Assembly: GCF_001447995.1 (NCBI RefSeq)
Contig: NZ_LDPE01000007.1
Span: 62,001-126,000 of the forward strand
Length of the DNA stretch: 64,000 nucleotides
Reading direction: 5' to 3'
From: Maribacter dokdonensis DSW-8
GTDB taxonomy: Bacteria > Bacteroidota > Bacteroidia > Flavobacteriales > Flavobacteriaceae
Within the stretch, counting starts at the first letter, position 1, and each line of letters begins with the position of its first letter. Shown here piece by piece: positions 11,246 through 19,570 of the stretch. The translations under genes and the position numbers were made by a program. The notes under the pieces were generated by a model that was not told the origin of the DNA, did not search any database, and saw nothing but the letters and a program-made list of their open reading frames with translations.

Positions 11246-11352
11246 GGTATAATTTTTATATGTTATTTATTGTTTTCAAATATCTTTCTATTTAAATGTT
11301 ATTAATAAAATAGATGACCCAGTTGTAGGTTATGGGTATTGAGTTGTAAGTA

Positions 11353-13506
11353 TTAAAGGTTGTCTAGCTGGTTGTAATTTTTATTTTTACTGATTGTCCA
11401 GAAGAAACCAATGAAAAAGAAGCGGTCTGCGGCGGGTGTAATTGTTCTTCGGTCGAATATACCATCAGTATTTGGCTGATCCGCATATTGGTAACCATTT
11501 ATGTTTTTTGTTCCCAGTACATTACTAACGGATAAGTACAATATTTTCTGCGGACTTATCAAATAGGCGTAGTTGAAGTTTAGTGAGTTGAAACTTTTGG
11601 CTTGTTCCGTTAAAAAACGGCCTGTGCTTGGGTCTGTATAACTACGACCGGATGCATAGTTGTAGCTGAATCCGATCTGACTTTTCCAATCCTCAACCCA
11701 TCGTTTTACCACTAATGATGCATTATGCTTGCTGGCAAAATCTGGTGTAGCTTTGGTTGGGTAATTTCGATAATTTCTTTTCGTATCTAAATAAGAATAA
11801 GACATCCAATATTCTGTATTTTTTAATGTTTTGTTGTCTCTCCAGAAAATGTCCAATCCTTTTGCAAAACCATTGCCAGTATTATCGTAGGTAGAAGTGG
11901 ACAGTGTAAAAGCTGTATTGTATTTGACTAAATTATTATAGTCTTTATAATATGCTTCGGCTCTAAAAATCTGTTTGTTTTTTACAAATTGATAGTTGGC
12001 AATATAATGTGTGGTTTTTTCAGCCGTAAAATCGGTATTGAACTTTAGGTACTCATTTCTAGGGTTTTGAAAGAACTCTCCGTATGCCAGAGAAAATTGT
12101 GCATTTTGCCCAGCTTTATAGGCTAGAGAGAGTCTTGGAGATAGATTAAATTCTTGTAATAATTGTGAATATTCACCTCTAAGACCCACTTTTGTCGCTA
12201 GATTTTTTGAGAAGAAAATATCTGCCTCGGCAAAGCCGCCTAAAAGGTTGTTGTTAAATTTGTATTCATTTTCAATAGTATTCGCACTGTAATCTTCTTT
12301 GAAGTCGGTTATAAAATATTCAGCACCAAAGTTTAATTTGTAACTACTGGAAAAGTATTTCTTCAGTGCTAATTTAAAATGGGCAGAATTTTCGGTGTCC
12401 GTAATATCTGCTGTGTCTAACTTTAATTTCGTTTGATCGCTAGCAAAGCTTATTCCAGTTGAAATACTCCAATCCTTTTCCATAAAATCTTGATAAGAAG
12501 TATTTAGATAAAGGTTGTTATTGTTCAACCCAAATCTAACACCATTAACTTCATTGATGTCTTCTTGTGTTAAGTCAAAGTCAACAGCGCTGTAGGCACC
12601 ATATACTTTTAGAAGTCCGTCATTATTGAATTTATATCTGTATACTGCTTCGCCTCCAAAAGATGCTACAGGTTTATGCCATTCATTGTTATCTGGATAT
12701 AATTCCTGATACGGTGCAAGATTTATATAATTGGCATTGACGCTTAGCGAACTTTTATCCCATATTTGGGTATTTCCAAGTCCTAGGCCAACCGTCATTA
12801 TTGAAATATCCGTTTTTTCTTCTTGTGGTTCGTTTACACTGTTCAATAGTAAAACACTTGATAGTGCTTGACCGTATTCTGCGGAATAACCTCCCGTTGA
12901 GAAGGTAATTCCTTTAAATAAGAAAGGAGATAACCGGCCCCTTGACGGTATGTTGTTTGCCGAAGGAGAATACGGAGTAAACACACGCATACCATCAACG
13001 AATATTTGAGTTTCCTCTGCATCGCCACCTCTAACGAATAATCTGCCATCCTCGGCAACATTAGAAGTACCGGGTAATGTCTGTAATGCGCCTACAAAGT
13101 CTCCTAAGGCTCCTGCTGTGGTTACAATATCAAGTGGTTTTAAAGCGGTAACCTTTGCATTGTCGCCTGCATTAAATGTACCGGCGTTAACGGTAACGGC
13201 ATCCAATGTGTTTACATCATCTCTTAATTTGATGGTGATATTTTGAAAATGATTGATTTTGTCTGATTTTGAATAGGTTTCAAACGAAATGGATGAAGCA
13301 ATTAAAGTATGTATTCCAGTAGCATCGGTTTCAAAGGAAAATACCCCTTGATCATTGGTTGCAGTACCATCATACGTTCCTTTTAAATATACATTTGCCC
13401 CAATAATTGGTAAGCCTTGTTGGTCAATTATCTTACCGGAGATAGTTGATTGCGCGTATGTATGCACGTAGAGTAGTGTAAGTAAAGCAATTAGTAGCGT
13501 CTTCAT
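11353..13506 (-). CDS. TonB-dependent outer-membrane receptor with carboxypeptidase-like regulatory domain
   Basis: The 717-residue form starts with a clean signal peptide, MKTLLIALLTLLYVHTYAQ. A CarboxypepD_reg-like domain follows (STISGKIIDQQGLPIIGANVYLKGT), then a plug domain (LQTLPGTSNVAEDGRLFVRGGDAEETQIFVDGM) and a C-terminal 22-strand-type barrel. The family imports ligands across the outer membrane using TonB energy. No SusD partner is adjacent, so the ligand may be a siderophore, vitamin or oligosaccharide; it is not predictable. A longer start at 13566 is open, but it would place 20 odd residues before the signal peptide and would run over a promoter-like motif at 13535-13566, so the ATG at 13506 is preferred. 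Confidence 0.9.
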   Translation of the reverse strand: MKTLLIALLTLLYVHTYAQSTISGKIIDQQGLPIIGANVYLKGTYDGTATNDQGVFSFETDATGIHTLIASSISFETYSKSDKINHFQNITIKLRDDVNTLDAVTVNAGTFNAGDNAKVTALKPLDIVTTAGALGDFVGALQTLPGTSNVAEDGRLFVRGGDAEETQIFVDGMRVFTPYSPSANNIPSRGRLSPFLFKGITFSTGGYSAEYGQALSSVLLLNSVNEPQEEKTDISIMTVGLGLGNTQIWDKSSLSVNANYINLAPYQELYPDNNEWHKPVASFGGEAVYRYKFNNDGLLKVYGAYSAVDFDLTQEDINEVNGVRFGLNNNNLYLNTSYQDFMEKDWSISTGISFASDQTKLKLDTADITDTENSAHFKLALKKYFSSSYKLNFGAEYFITDFKEDYSANTIENEYKFNNNLLGGFAEADIFFSKNLATKVGLRGEYSQLLQEFNLSPRLSLAYKAGQNAQFSLAYGEFFQNPRNEYLKFNTDFTAEKTTHYIANYQFVKNKQIFRAEAYYKDYNNLVKYNTAFTLSTSTYDNTGNGFAKGLDIFWRDNKTLKNTEYWMSYSYLDTKRNYRNYPTKATPDFASKHNASLVVKRWVEDWKSQIGFSYNYASGRSYTDPSTGRFLTEQAKSFNSLNFNYAYLISPQKILYLSVSNVLGTKNINGYQYADQPNTDGIFDRRTITPAADRFFFIGFFWTISKNKNYNQLDNL

Positions 13507-13534
13507 TATTGATTGTATTTTTTGATTGATGCCA

Positions 13535-13566
13535 CAAATATGAATTGTTCGTAATGGTTTGAACAA
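13535..13566 (-). promoter_or_regulatory. Putative promoter of the TonB-dependent receptor
   Basis: Read on the reverse strand this is TTG (13566-13564), a 21-bp spacer, then CATATTTG (13542-13535), one mismatch from the TAnnTTTG consensus. It lies about 30 bp before the preferred start at 13506 and supports that start. Confidence 0.45.
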
Positions 13567-16489: not shown

Positions 16490-17545
16490 CTAGATATTGT
16501 TAGCCAACCAATCTCCAACTTCACTGGTTTTATAGCTTTTGCCACCTTCGGATAAATCCTCTGTAACATAACCTTCGGCCAATGACTTATTAACTACTCG
16601 TCTAATTTCTTCAGCTTCTTCAGTTAAATCTAAATCTTCAAAAAGCATGGCTGCAGAAAGTACAGTTGCTAAAGGGTTTGCAATGTCCTTACCTGCCGCT
16701 TGCGGATAAGAACCATGTATAGGCTCGTATAAAGAGACATCACTACCAACAGATGAAGAAGGCATTAGTCCCATAGATCCTGCAATTACAGATGCTTCGT
16801 CTGTTAGAATATCACCAAATAGGTTTGCTGTAATGATTACATCATATCCTTTTGGCCACTGAATTAAACGCATTGCTACGGCATCTATAAACTCATATGT
16901 AACCTCTACTTCCGGATAATCTTTTTCCATGGCCTGTACGGTCTCTCTCCAAAGTCTAGATGATTCCAATACGTTGGCCTTGTCTACACAACATAATTTT
17001 TTAGAACGTTTCATAGCAAATTCAAAGCCTTTTTTAGCTAATCTTTCTATTTCAAAACGTTGGTAGGTCATGGTGTCAAATGCAGTATTTCCATCATCTT
17101 TTCTACCACGTTCCCCAAAATAAACCCCTCCTGTTAATTCTCTTAGAATAATTAAATCCGTTCCTTCTATACGATCTCTTTTCAAAGGAGATTTGTCTAT
17201 CAATGAAGGAAATGTAAATGTTGGTCTAACGTTAGCAAATAAGCCTAATTTTTGTCTCATTTTCAACAATCCCTGTTCTGGACGAACTTTTGCTGACGGG
17301 TCATTGTCAAAACGGGGGTGACCTATAGCACCGAATAAAACAGCATCTGCATTTGCACAAATTTCATGTGTTTCGTCTGGGTAAGGCTCTCCAACGGCAT
17401 CAATAGCTGCCGCACCGGTAAGCGCTGGCTGCCAAGTGATATGGTGCTCATATTTTTTAGCAATGGCATCACATACCTTTACTGCTTGATCAATAACTTC
17501 AGGACCGATACCATCACCGGCCAATAAGGCAATATTTAATTTCAT
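16490..17545 (-). CDS. leuB: 3-isopropylmalate dehydrogenase
   Basis: LeuB oxidises and decarboxylates 3-isopropylmalate to 2-oxoisocaproate with NAD. The 351-residue chain opens with LNIALLAGDGIGPEVIDQAVKV. It has the substrate arginine region (RPEQGLLKMRQKLGLFANVRP), RELTGGVYFGERGR and the Mg-binding ANLFGDILTDEASVIAGSMGLMPS. GSYPQAAGKDIANPLAT is the cofactor loop of the NAD-specific type (EPIHGS..PD..GK). It is the last gene of the leucine operon. It is separated from leuA by a four-helix-bundle gene and repeat-rich spacers, 75 bp of which lie directly before its ATG. Confidence 0.97.
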   Translation of the reverse strand: MKLNIALLAGDGIGPEVIDQAVKVCDAIAKKYEHHITWQPALTGAAAIDAVGEPYPDETHEICANADAVLFGAIGHPRFDNDPSAKVRPEQGLLKMRQKLGLFANVRPTFTFPSLIDKSPLKRDRIEGTDLIILRELTGGVYFGERGRKDDGNTAFDTMTYQRFEIERLAKKGFEFAMKRSKKLCCVDKANVLESSRLWRETVQAMEKDYPEVEVTYEFIDAVAMRLIQWPKGYDVIITANLFGDILTDEASVIAGSMGLMPSSSVGSDVSLYEPIHGSYPQAAGKDIANPLATVLSAAMLFEDLDLTEEAEEIRRVVNKSLAEGYVTEDLSEGGKSYKTSEVGDWLANNI

Positions 17546-17552
17546 GGTTAAT

Positions 17553-17588
17553 CGCTTTTTCGCTTTTCGCTGTACGCTAAACGTTATA
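17553..17588. repeat. CGCTnnn heptad repeats between the four-helix-bundle gene and leuB
   Basis: On the + strand the units CGCTTTTT, CGCTTTT, CGCTGTA, CGCTAAA, CGTTATA run head to tail. CG dinucleotides begin at 17553, 17561, 17568, 17575, 17582 and again 17596, so the 7-bp phase is nearly perfect. The array ends 7 bp before the leuB ATG. A matching CG-phased array lies on the other side of the neighbouring gene. Confidence 0.7.
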
Positions 17589-17620
17589 CTTTAATCGTAT
17601 ATAGTTTAGGCTATTTATAA

Positions 17621-17977
17621 TTATATCTTATTAATTAAACTATTTAAACTTCTTCTCACTTTATTTACTTTATCATGAATGCTTAAAAACTCTTTATTCA
17701 TAATATAGTCAAGGTCTTTTGCTAATATTGTAAAATACTCTAATTCACTTGCCGAGCCTTGAGCTATAATTAAAAATCTTTTGAATTCAGCATCAGATTC
17801 CCTTCCGCACCCTTCAGCTATATTTGCTGGTATGGATGAAGAAGCTCTTCTCATTTGACTTGTTAATCCAAAATTTTCATCGTTTGGGAAGTTCTTGGTC
17901 AATTTATACGTTTCTAAAGTAATTTCATGACCTAATTCCCAAACTGTATATTTTTTATAATCCCTCATTTTTGGCAT
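17621..17977 (-). CDS. Four-helix-bundle protein, 23S rRNA intervening-sequence protein (S23/IVP) family
   Basis: The 118-residue protein has the S23/IVP family core: WELGHEITLETYKLTKNFP, then FGLTSQMRRASSSIPANIAEG and a helix EFKRFLIIAQGSASELEYFTILAKDL. Homologues were first found as ORFs inside 23S rRNA intervening sequences and also stand alone in many genomes; the related bAvd protein works with diversity-generating retroelements. Here the gene stands between leuA (34 bp upstream) and leuB (75 bp downstream) on the operon strand, flanked by CG-phased heptad repeats. No leucine-related role is known. No reverse transcriptase or rRNA is nearby. It may be a passenger cassette, a nucleic-acid-binding protein or an RNA-level regulator. 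Confidence 0.85.
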   Translation of the reverse strand: MPKMRDYKKYTVWELGHEITLETYKLTKNFPNDENFGLTSQMRRASSSIPANIAEGCGRESDAEFKRFLIIAQGSASELEYFTILAKDLDYIMNKEFLSIHDKVNKVRRSLNSLINKI

Positions 17978-17978
17978 T

Positions 17979-18014
17979 TAGCGCTTAACGAACAGCGTCA
18001 AGCGCTTTGCGCTA
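17979..18014. repeat. CG-phased heptad repeats with dyad symmetry between leuA and the four-helix-bundle gene
   Basis: From 17980 the + strand reads AGCGCTT, AACGAAC, AGCGTCA, AGCGCTT, TGCGCTA: five heptads with CG at 17982, 17989, 17996, 18003 and 18010, exactly 7 bp apart. AGCGCTT (17980-17986) and AAGCGCT (18000-18006) are also inverted repeats, so the leader RNA can fold. The array fills the whole 34-bp gap and includes the leuA stop codon. Confidence 0.7.
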
Positions 18015-19529
18015 TATTATATTCAACATTTTCTCGGTAGCTTTAATAGCACTAACCGTTTGGTCTGAATCCAATCCTCTTGATGTGAATTCTTTTCCGT
18101 TCAATTCCCAAGTAATTACTGTTTCGCATAATGCATCAGAAGTACTACCAGGAGGAATTCTTACCGCATAATCCGTTAGTTTAGGTAAGGCAATTTTTTT
18201 GGCAATGTACACCTTTTTAAGGGCATTCATAAAAGCATCATACTGTCCGTCTCCTTGAGCATGCGCTTCAATTACTTTTCCATCGATTTCAACAGATAGG
18301 GTAGTAGAAGGCATTAATCCCTTGGCGTGTGTAAGTACGTAAGATTTTATAAAAACCTTTTGCTTATAATCTGCAGTATCTAAAACATCGGATATTATAA
18401 AAGGAAGGTCATCTTTGGTTACACGTTCTTTCTTGTCTCCTAATTCTATAATTCTGGCAGTAACTTTTTTTAATTCTTCATTATTTAGGGTTAATCCAAG
18501 CTCCTGTAGATTTTTCTGTATGTTGGCTTTGCCAGACATTTTTCCTAATGCATATTTGCGCTTTCTACCAAAACGTTCTGGCATTAAGTCACTGAAGTAG
18601 AGATTGTTTTTACTGTCTCCATCTGCGTGAATACCAGCGGTTTGGGTAAATACATTATCGCCTACTATAGGTTTATTCGCTGGTATGGTAAAACCTGTAA
18701 AAGCAGATACCAGTTTACTTACTTTATATAAAGAGGTTTCATTTACATTAATTTTTACTTCTGGTAAAAAGTCATTGATTACCGCAATGGCACTTGCCAT
18801 TGGAGCATTACCAGCGCGTTCTCCCATACCATTTACGGTTAGGTGTAGACCATGACAACCGGCTTTTACGGCTTCCATAATATTGGCAACACCTAAATCG
18901 TAATCGTTATGCCCATGAAAATCAAAATGTAAATTCGGAAATTTTTGAATGATTTCAGTTAAATAAGCATAGGTTTCTGTGTGCGTAAGAATACCTAATG
19001 TATCTGGTAATAAAATCCTTTTTACATTTTGTGTTGAAAGGAATTCTAAAAATTCAAAAACATACTCTTTTGAATTTCGCATTCCATTACTCCAATCCTC
19101 TAAATAAATATTATTGATAATGCCTCTTTCTGTGGCTTGTTCAAAAATAGCTGCTATTTCATTGAAGTGTTGCTCAGGGATTTTCTTTAACTGATATTTT
19201 AAATGGTTAAGAGAGCCCTTGGTCAACAAATTTTGTGAAACGGCACCAGAAGTTTTCATCCAATCCAAAGAAACCCCACCGTCCACAAAAGTTAGAACCT
19301 CTACACGTTCTAAAAAACCATTTTCAGCGGCCCATTCGGTAATTTTTTGAACAGCTTCAAGCTCACCATCGGAAACTCGTGCCGAAGCTACTTCAATACG
19401 GTCTACTTTTAGCTCTTCTAAAAGTAGTTTCGCCAAGGTCAATTTTTCCGATGCAGAAAAGGATACGCCTGAGGTCTGTTCACCATCCCTAAGGGTGGTA
19501 TCCATTATTTCTAACTTTCTTTTTTTCAT
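18012..19529 (-). CDS. leuA: 2-isopropylmalate synthase family enzyme (LeuA; citramalate synthase not excluded)
   Basis: The HMGL-like TIM barrel carries the catalytic start motif IMDTTLRDGEQTSG, the metal-binding FHGHNDYDLG and NGMGERAGNAPMAS. The C-terminal LeuA dimerisation/regulatory domain (about residues 375-505) includes HAQGDGQYDAFMNALKK. The operon context (leuC, leuD, leuB) favours 2-isopropylmalate synthesis from 2-oxoisovalerate and acetyl-CoA. The sequence is of the divergent Bacteroidota type and somewhat CimA-like, but ilvA is present so citramalate is not needed for isoleucine. The start at 19529 (MKKRKLEIMD) is preferred; an upstream ATG at 19550 lies inside a hairpin arm. 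Confidence 0.88.
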   Translation of the reverse strand: MKKRKLEIMDTTLRDGEQTSGVSFSASEKLTLAKLLLEELKVDRIEVASARVSDGELEAVQKITEWAAENGFLERVEVLTFVDGGVSLDWMKTSGAVSQNLLTKGSLNHLKYQLKKIPEQHFNEIAAIFEQATERGIINNIYLEDWSNGMRNSKEYVFEFLEFLSTQNVKRILLPDTLGILTHTETYAYLTEIIQKFPNLHFDFHGHNDYDLGVANIMEAVKAGCHGLHLTVNGMGERAGNAPMASAIAVINDFLPEVKINVNETSLYKVSKLVSAFTGFTIPANKPIVGDNVFTQTAGIHADGDSKNNLYFSDLMPERFGRKRKYALGKMSGKANIQKNLQELGLTLNNEELKKVTARIIELGDKKERVTKDDLPFIISDVLDTADYKQKVFIKSYVLTHAKGLMPSTTLSVEIDGKVIEAHAQGDGQYDAFMNALKKVYIAKKIALPKLTDYAVRIPPGSTSDALCETVITWELNGKEFTSRGLDSDQTVSAIKATEKMLNII

Positions 19530-19538
19530 GTGATCTAA

Positions 19539-19570
19539 TTGCCGTTTCATCTTATATTAGGAAACGGCAA
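19539..19570 (-). promoter_or_regulatory. Hairpin at the leuA translation start
   Basis: TTGCCGTTTC and GAAACGGCAA (+ strand 19539-19548 and 19561-19570) form a perfect 10-bp inverted repeat with a 12-nt loop. On the mRNA strand the second arm covers the upstream candidate start (ATG at 19550) and ends 9 nt before the preferred ATG at 19529. It could limit leuA translation within the leu mRNA. There is no T-run. Confidence 0.6.

Follow-up and report, generated by a model that had tools for sequence, protein, structure and literature searches.

A leucine-operon S23 gene between mirrored heptad arrays in Maribacter points to a general rule linking the S23 family to seven-nucleotide repeats

The nearest literature precedent for the locus described here is a single S23p ORF with heptamers beside it. 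In the Coxiella intervening sequence (IVS), GACAGAT heptamers precede the S23p ORF, and passages of the same paper propose that an IVS with such an ORF is possibly mobile or selfish and describe the Xanthomonas S23 protein as a toroidal homopentamer (PMC4990558). In addition, passages of other reports place 18 IVP genes in cas loci (PMC3936711), IVP ORFs within rRNA insertions of CPR bacteria (PMC11270868), and a four helix bundle gene between those for guanylate kinase and nicotinate-nucleotide adenylyltransferase (PMC5524665). Heptads have also been reported on their own. For TAACTGA arrays before start codons, MacGregor 2015 proposed a post-transcriptional binder of then-unknown identity (PMC4679880), and in X. 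campestris, 186 GGGAATC patterns were counted in a passage by Rehm 2015 (PMC4692102). The terms 's23' and 'four helix' have 0 occurrences in the main texts of these two papers, and none of the open-licence PMC papers listed for S23, IVP or four-helix-bundle proteins together with heptads or tandem repeats states a rule joining S23 to heptad arrays.

The present locus lies in a 64 kb stretch of Maribacter dokdonensis DNA (the window, meaning the whole stretch that was analysed). It consists of an S23/IVP gene with a heptad array on each side, placed between two genes that we take, following the first-pass annotation, to be leuA and leuB (Table 1).

Table 1. Features at the leuA-leuB junction, in window positions.
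Feature	Position	Strand	Basis
S23/IVP four-helix-bundle gene, 118 aa	17621..17977	(-)	ORF, PF05635, TIGR02436, structure model, Foldseek
Upstream heptad array, CGCTnnn-like on the sense strand, ~5 units, abuts/overlaps the leuA stop	17979..18014	(-)	sequence, period-7 score 44.7
Downstream heptad array, AGCGnnn-like on the sense strand, ends just 5' of the leuB start	17551..17598	(-)	sequence, period-7 score 46.9
leuB (presumed name), downstream of the cassette	16490..17545	(-)	ORF
leuA (presumed name), upstream of the cassette	18012..19550	(-)	ORF

CG dinucleotides were read every 7 nt at 17982, 17989, 17996, 18003 and 18010 and, on the other side, at 17561, 17568, 17575, 17582 and 17596, all as claimed by the first-pass annotation; a further CG, absent from its list, was found at 17553 in the downstream array. 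In operon sense the two arrays are inverted, CGCTnnn upstream vs AGCGnnn downstream, with about four of the seven heptad positions conserved, and the leuA stop codon (18012-18014) lies at the edge of the upstream array. Since a 4-unit array scan at low threshold gave mostly noise, array scores were taken from 6 units, and rows of genome G033 arising from masked N runs (scored as A) were left out; at low thresholds, period-5 and period-6 repeats were common. By this 6-unit information score, the leu arrays are the top two period-7 places in the window, the next-best reaching 39.5 at 11313-11363. It had been claimed that the pattern occurs nowhere else in the window, which is true of the CG motif and not of heptads as such, given the weaker non-CG units at that place. 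The stretch in question lacks S23, is of the GTTGTAG/GTATTGA type and lies beside ORF 11353-13566. Within 260 kb of other stretches from the same genome, scores above 44 were reached by four stretches in two regions (L097, L098). The leu arrays were undetected by a generic repeat finder. In the predicted RNA fold of the leu element, its two arrays pair with each other (z -4.82, 0/100 shuffles as good), and among leu copies the heptad core is kept, with spacers and unit number varying.

The assignment of the 118-residue ORF to the S23 family was borne out by PF05635 (132.3 bits, cut-off 33.8, E 2.8e-38) and TIGR02436 (129.9 bits, cut-off 24, E 4.1e-38), and its NCBIfam matches were to S23-type models only. 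An AlphaFold model (pLDDT 96.2) has four helices, and the protein is predicted to share the four-helix-bundle fold of solved S23 members. Its best solved Foldseek match was 2gsc (TM 0.93), which is Xcc0516 of X. campestris, followed by 2rld; both relatives have five chains in the crystal. Avd structures ranked lower, namely 4dwl (TM 0.76) and 8ub7 (TM 0.82), at ~10% identity and E 0.06-0.1. The window protein matched no anti-phage defence system, with 0 PADLOC families at E up to 1.

Comparison across the genus showed how variable this junction is. leuA was found in 36/36 genomes searched, in some via a paralogue only, and 30 leuA-leuB junctions were read. S23 is present at six of them (one broken) and absent from 24, which agrees with the earlier view of gene and repeats as a cassette; the expected joint absence of the gene and both arrays did not prove to be the rule, as three S23-less junctions retain the right array only, with its trailer, and four the left only (by eye). 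At six junctions there is an array-free spacer of 55-57 nt with a common sequence; the others carry unrelated arrays or spacers (by eye). On the leuA tree, the S23 state requires five changes; some members of the genus have lost the cassette wholly or in part, and it has also been acquired again. The sister loci L010 and L011 are mostly 95-100% alike outside the cassette, which only L011 carries; L010 has a right remnant, 76% like that of L011. The L011 cassette is 95-100% like that of the window, while most of leuA is 75-91% alike. Break points are unplaceable because the gene ends adjoining the cassette are about equally window-like in L010 and L011, and the sequences would fit either insertion carried by the element or homologous exchange at the junction. 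In genome G028, an S23 gene 66% identical, with mirrored arrays of another motif, lies between what are presumably leuC and leuD, judging by likeness to window ORFs. S23-less arrays of other motifs were seen at some leu junctions (L021, L029, L034, L035); in L021 (G025), TAGTTAG x4 directly follows the leuA stop and is unlike the S23 motif at the relatives' junctions. None of the loci compared gave an exact filled/empty pair with clean borders, and a check for empty sites and target-site duplications at leuA-leuB and permease/gldG-like junctions met remnants and varied spacers, without clean borders.

The arrangement is not confined to leu. By PF05635, the strain has seven S23 genes in its 4.43 Mb, whereas 14 control genomes have none. 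By eye, all seven occupy short gaps, and each is bordered left and right by short repeats of a motif particular to that gene and mirrored across it, the period being usually 7 and the arrays usually inverted. The motifs include CGTTnnn / nnnAACG (L003), AGTATTA / ACTTAAT (L002), CAATTAnC with its reverse complement (L005) and, at period 8, AGTGAAAT / CACTAACC (L004); the repeats of L007 have period 6 and those of L006 are weak (all by eye). CG phasing, treated by the first-pass annotation as essential, is thus a peculiarity of one locus, the other S23 loci having motifs of their own. A period of 8 or 6 in place of 7 was observed at a few S23 loci (L004, L047, L059, L007 and L060).

In Maribacter and relatives, S23 was found in 16 of 21 genomes, and 61 loci were read from 67 listed places, which include some pairs of gene halves and a few unread sites. 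For the 60 loci with both 100-nt flanks, compared with dinucleotide shuffles, the mean period-7 z was 2.90 upstream and 3.16 downstream of S23, and the other periods from 4 to 13 gave means of -0.53 to 0.92. A period-7 z above 3 was seen in 48% and 55% of S23 flanks vs 1% of 104 random genome windows, whose mean was 0.11. Counting loci positive on either side, heptads were present at 32/60 S23 loci vs 11/447 ordinary gaps, the latter taken from three Maribacter genomes; the odds ratio is 45 (p 6e-25). Furthermore, the two flanks shared 9.53 6-mers in inverted orientation, against a mean of 4.24 and a maximum of 5.72 in 5000 re-pairings; in direct orientation, sharing was 4.77 vs 4.06 (p 0.015).

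An all-phyla set was obtained by a contig scan with a single conserved peptide pattern, keeping the best 80 of 586 confirmed places, because of which divergent S23 proteins are under-represented. Record titles among these best 80 name Bacteroidota, Chloroflexota, Verrucomicrobiota, Planctomycetota, Acidobacteria, Cyanobacteria, Clostridia, Saccharibacteria and others, as well as several proteobacterial classes and one archaeon. The non-Maribacter loci numbered 78 (L107-L184), 72 of them with both flanks. In these 72, the mean z on the two S23 sides was 3.29 and 3.04 for period 7, 2.72 and 2.31 for period 14, and -0.5 to 0.2 for the others. On at least one side, 50 loci exceeded a period-7 z of 3; the shuffle z test gave no clear period-7 signal on either side for the other 22. 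Control windows 500-900 nt off in the same loci (n=285) had a mean of -0.13, with 2% over 3. Inverted sharing between flanks reached 9.78 vs a permutation maximum of 3.93 (5000 permutations), and direct sharing 6.92 vs 4.08. With the cut-off at the 99% level of mismatched flank pairs, 23 loci were inverted, 12 direct and 34 either. Altogether, the DNA sequences show period-7 (sometimes 6 or 8) arrays on both sides of S23 genes from many phyla, with one motif per locus.

A pure RNA-stem model fails to explain the 12 direct-array loci set against the 23 inverted. Of 79 loci that have both arrays, the 68 inverted ones had suggested selection for an in-register stem in a first test (Wilcoxon 5e-9). 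A cleaner control with reversed unit order (67 loci) showed no register effect: with both arms reversed the value differed by 0.07 kcal from that with one arm reversed (p 0.89), and exact pairing of arm with arm is not detectably under selection. At the archaeal locus (L132), a downstream heptad array is visible by eye, the upstream flank being too short for the z test. In Chloroflexota, the S23 gene of L108 lies between near-perfect direct repeat copies of ~30 nt that contain part of the heptad array and are possibly an insertion-linked duplication.

The S23 motif differs between loci and, as far as sequences can tell, tracks S23 lineage even at unrelated sites. This was tested on 174 loci with at least 600 nt on each side (short loci, L350 and above, were left out). 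Pairs were taken in which the flanking genes are unrelated and the S23 proteins have an identity of 60% or more; in these 106 pairs, motif sharing was 16.92 vs 10.66 permuted; with permutations kept within GC classes, the maximum was 13.73 and 0/2000 reached the observed value. The Nostocaceae loci L321 (G479) and L327 (G486) have in common a 455-nt block, 86% identical, that spans the upstream GGGAACA array through S23 to the downstream TTCCCTG array, with nothing alike outside. A relocated array-bounded block likewise links L207 and L340 (74% identical). S23 is therefore relocated together with same-motif arrays and, as the borders of both blocks lie inside repeats, this would fit arrays that travel as well as homing of S23 into an array of the same motif. 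That S23 belongs with its arrays in a single motif-specific unit is very likely.

Arrays without the gene, often as inverted pairs, are also present in the sequences. CGCTnnn x4 was found in 20/36 genus genomes, nearly always away from leu; a reversed control of the pattern matched in five. The first-pass annotation had held that random occurrence of heptads away from S23 genes would speak against its reading. Heptads do formally occur there, but gene-less derivatives fit these better than random occurrence because ordinary Maribacter gaps rarely hold heptads (11/447). In the strain's own genome, CGCTnnn x4 occurs at two places away from leu, in array regions without evident S23, and L266 is by eye a gene-less inverted pair. 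The stretch L097:15723-16197 (G000 C1) is a composite of differing heptad arrays, including CGCTATA and AGCGAAC types, with no evident S23, and L098:5678-5798 (G000 C1) is a long near-perfect TCAGTAA array without S23. Arrays are also present in the S23-free Maribacter G033 (L284). In Nostocaceae, S23 lies in 2/30 junctions between genes that we take to encode an ABC permease and a gldG-like protein. Period 7 exceeded z 3 in 23 of the 29 gaps measured there, 21 of those being without S23, and periods 5, 6 and 8-11 did so in at most one gap each. Heptads fill 34/42 gaps of these loci in some Nostocaceae, and because of this an array beside a Nostocaceae S23 gene is uninformative by itself. The motifs of gene-less gaps matched the S23 motifs of their own genomes weakly, with ranks of 2, 1, 6, 3 and 1 of 13 in five genomes. 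At L400/L329 (G481), the S23 gene, with TCATTTG and CAAATGA arrays on its two sides, points the other way from the operon around it.

The published orphan heptads were then found beside S23 in some of the genomes that carry them. TAACTGA x3 occurs in 2/57 genomes of a Thiodictyon's family, and both have S23; the search for S23 in this set covered these two genomes and the Thiodictyon itself. In G066, one S23 gene has TTAGTTATCAGTTATCAG on its upstream side and CACTGAAAACTGAAAACTG on its downstream side, which is the dispersed TAACTGA motif, and a second, disrupted S23 gene has similar short stretches; by eye, 4/6 distinct dispersed TAACTGA places in this genome are gene-less inverted pairs. 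In G100, the dispersed motif is beside neither of its two S23 genes. A 24-nt GGGAATC pattern was found in 1/369 gammaproteobacterial genomes (G474), whose sole S23 gene, with a family match that ends at position 64, is flanked by GGGAATCGGCAATGGGGAATCGGGAATCG and, mirrored, GATTCCCTACTCCCCATTCCCGATTCCCG; its neighbours look like accB and accC. GGGGAYT x3 occurs in 24/40 Nostocaceae, with counts from 0 to 1442 across the set. Flanks of S23 genes were read in eight of the nine richest genomes (G045 outside) and in nine of the 16 zero-match genomes, a tenth zero-match genome being without S23. Each of the four richest genomes (1442, 1220, 509 and 499) has exactly one S23 gene between inverted GGGGAYT arrays, which makes 4/40 of the S23 genes read. 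In the next four (364, 143, 112 and 84), no S23 gene has two units in the flanks read, and in the zero-match genomes the motif accompanies 0/25 S23 genes. The difference of 4/8 vs 0/9 genomes gives a one-sided Fisher p of 0.03 (by hand), and the association may equal one phylogenetic event because the four S23 proteins are 88-94% alike in the pairs listed.

The leu-locus observation points to a general rule linking the S23 family to heptad arrays, and this flank rule may explain the orphan 7-letter repeats reported in several bacterial groups. The leu cassette itself is probably one copy of a widespread array-bounded mobile element, built as heptad array, S23 gene and heptad array, usually inverted. 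The first-pass annotation had suggested an RNA-binding or self-inserting element marked by CG phasing; that mark falls away, and the locus is best read as a mobile element whose build is akin to that of rRNA intervening sequences. Binding of the heptad by the S23 protein is judged on balance to be likely, and mobility of the unit of S23 and arrays about equally so. Several of the results above weigh against this reading: direct arrays at about a third of the clear cross-phylum loci, the 22/72 loci with no clear period-7 signal, arrays in the S23-free G033 and in most gaps of some Nostocaceae, the S23 flanks of G100 and of four GGGGAYT-rich genomes, which lack the dispersed motif, and the weak match of gene-less motifs to those of S23 in the same genome. 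Recognition of the core by the protein would be the simplest cause, because every S23 copy has a motif of its own on either side, this motif goes with the protein and the leu core is kept. In the proposed mechanism, an S23 pentamer would recognise, on RNA or single-stranded DNA, the core that is conserved in its own heptad, with about one unit per subunit; the leu copy, with ~five units in each array, would suit this. The mirrored arrays would be the ends of the element, and heptad specificity would let the element and its gene-less derivatives settle in intergenic gaps with the next gene still expressed. Cutting and copying would probably be supplied from elsewhere, by a host or trans-acting enzyme, because the NCBIfam matches are to S23-family models only. 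As RNA, the leu element would have its arrays paired, in the build of an rRNA intervening sequence. A wider synthesis is offered tentatively, as a possibility to which we give somewhat less than even weight: S23/IVP proteins may be pentameric-ring partners of 7-nt arrays, taking one heptad per subunit on RNA or ssDNA; S23 and arrays may be a pan-prokaryotic minimal mobile element without recognisable recombinase, of which the rRNA IVSs would be the rRNA copies; and the orphan heptads of Xanthomonas, Beggiatoaceae and cyanobacteria may be its gene-less progeny.

It is unlikely, though arguable, that the arrays came first, as independent intergenic repeats produced by slippage or kept as intercistronic hairpins, and that S23 homes into arrays of its own motif as a passenger and not their maker. 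Arrays do outnumber S23 genes (21/29 permease/gldG-like and 34/42 Nostocaceae gaps), exist in the S23-free G033 and occur with other motifs at the S23-less leu junctions named above, and the relocated blocks have their borders inside repeats, so that their arrays may not have travelled. However, such homing would still require an S23-specific motif; moreover, away from S23, arrays are seldom seen in Maribacter (11/447 gaps), and the genomes with a GGGGAYT-flanked S23 gene are precisely the four with the highest GGGGAYT counts. A domesticated post-transcriptional regulator is quite improbable. Here S23 would be a ring on mRNA heptad arrays, comparable to TRAP, controlling its own operon and leaders with the same array. 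Both neighbours are on the S23 strand in 113/141 loci, stop and start codons are often directly adjoined by arrays, S23 has the Avd fold, and a post-transcriptional binder was indeed what MacGregor 2015 proposed for TAACTGA (PMC4679880); yet, with mirrored arrays, every message would carry the motif's complement on one of its sides, the gene is patchily distributed (6/30 leu junctions) and the S23 gene of L400 runs against its operon. That heptads are ordinary low-complexity intergenic repeats, due to chance or base composition, is extremely improbable, for although they are pervasive in Nostocaceae gaps and period 5 and 6 repeats are common at low thresholds, beside S23 only period 7 (and 14) stands out, the signal is absent from shuffles, distant windows and ordinary gaps, which together with the other periods exclude this outside Nostocaceae, and two-side motif sharing lies above all 5000 permutations.

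If the reading of an array-bounded S23 element is true, a large role-less protein family would gain its first candidate partner sequence and a testable function, and three separately published, unexplained 7-nt repeat families would be tied to one cause. A protein-repeat recognition code would become readable from genomes, because each S23 gene has its presumed target beside it. In addition, a unit of ~450 nt that settles unharmfully inside biosynthetic operons would represent a selfish or regulatory element of a new kind, for which laboratory cyanobacteria with such genes would offer a test bed.

RAYT transposases are of the HUH/Y1 type, and the window protein is S23 by family and fold, not a tyrosine transposase. 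RAYT/REPIN systems nevertheless resemble the S23 loci in that a gene is tied to its own class of short repeat, accompanied by many gene-less inverted doublets; RAYT is a tyrosine transposase (PMC3116915). S23, a four-helix bundle, is not known to have any activity. Dispersed inverted doublets of the gene-flanking repeat were found for TAACTGA in G066 and at L266 of the strain's own genome, but the S23-flank repeats differ from REPINs in being tandem heptads with a locus-specific core. Avd of diversity-generating retroelements has the same fold as S23 by Foldseek (4dwl, 8ub7) and differs in acting, according to passages of one paper, with a reverse transcriptase and template/variable repeats (PMC10053308). 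The orphan heptads are like S23 arrays in that the same motifs flank S23 in genomes carrying such arrays; for them, passages of the two papers offer G-quadruplex or post-transcriptional ideas and no S23 (PMC4679880, PMC4692102). The 23S rRNA IVS, which is excised by RNase III, differs in lying inside an rRNA gene, unlike the leu unit between the protein genes leuA and leuB, and in having one near-perfect 28-bp stem in place of heptad arrays on both sides; the passages of the IVS paper treat a single case and leave a general rule unstated. The likeness extends, from those passages, to an S23 ORF between mirrored borders and to a size of ~430-470 nt (PMC4990558), and at the leu locus the S23 ORF is likewise predicted to lie in the loop of pairable mirrored borders.
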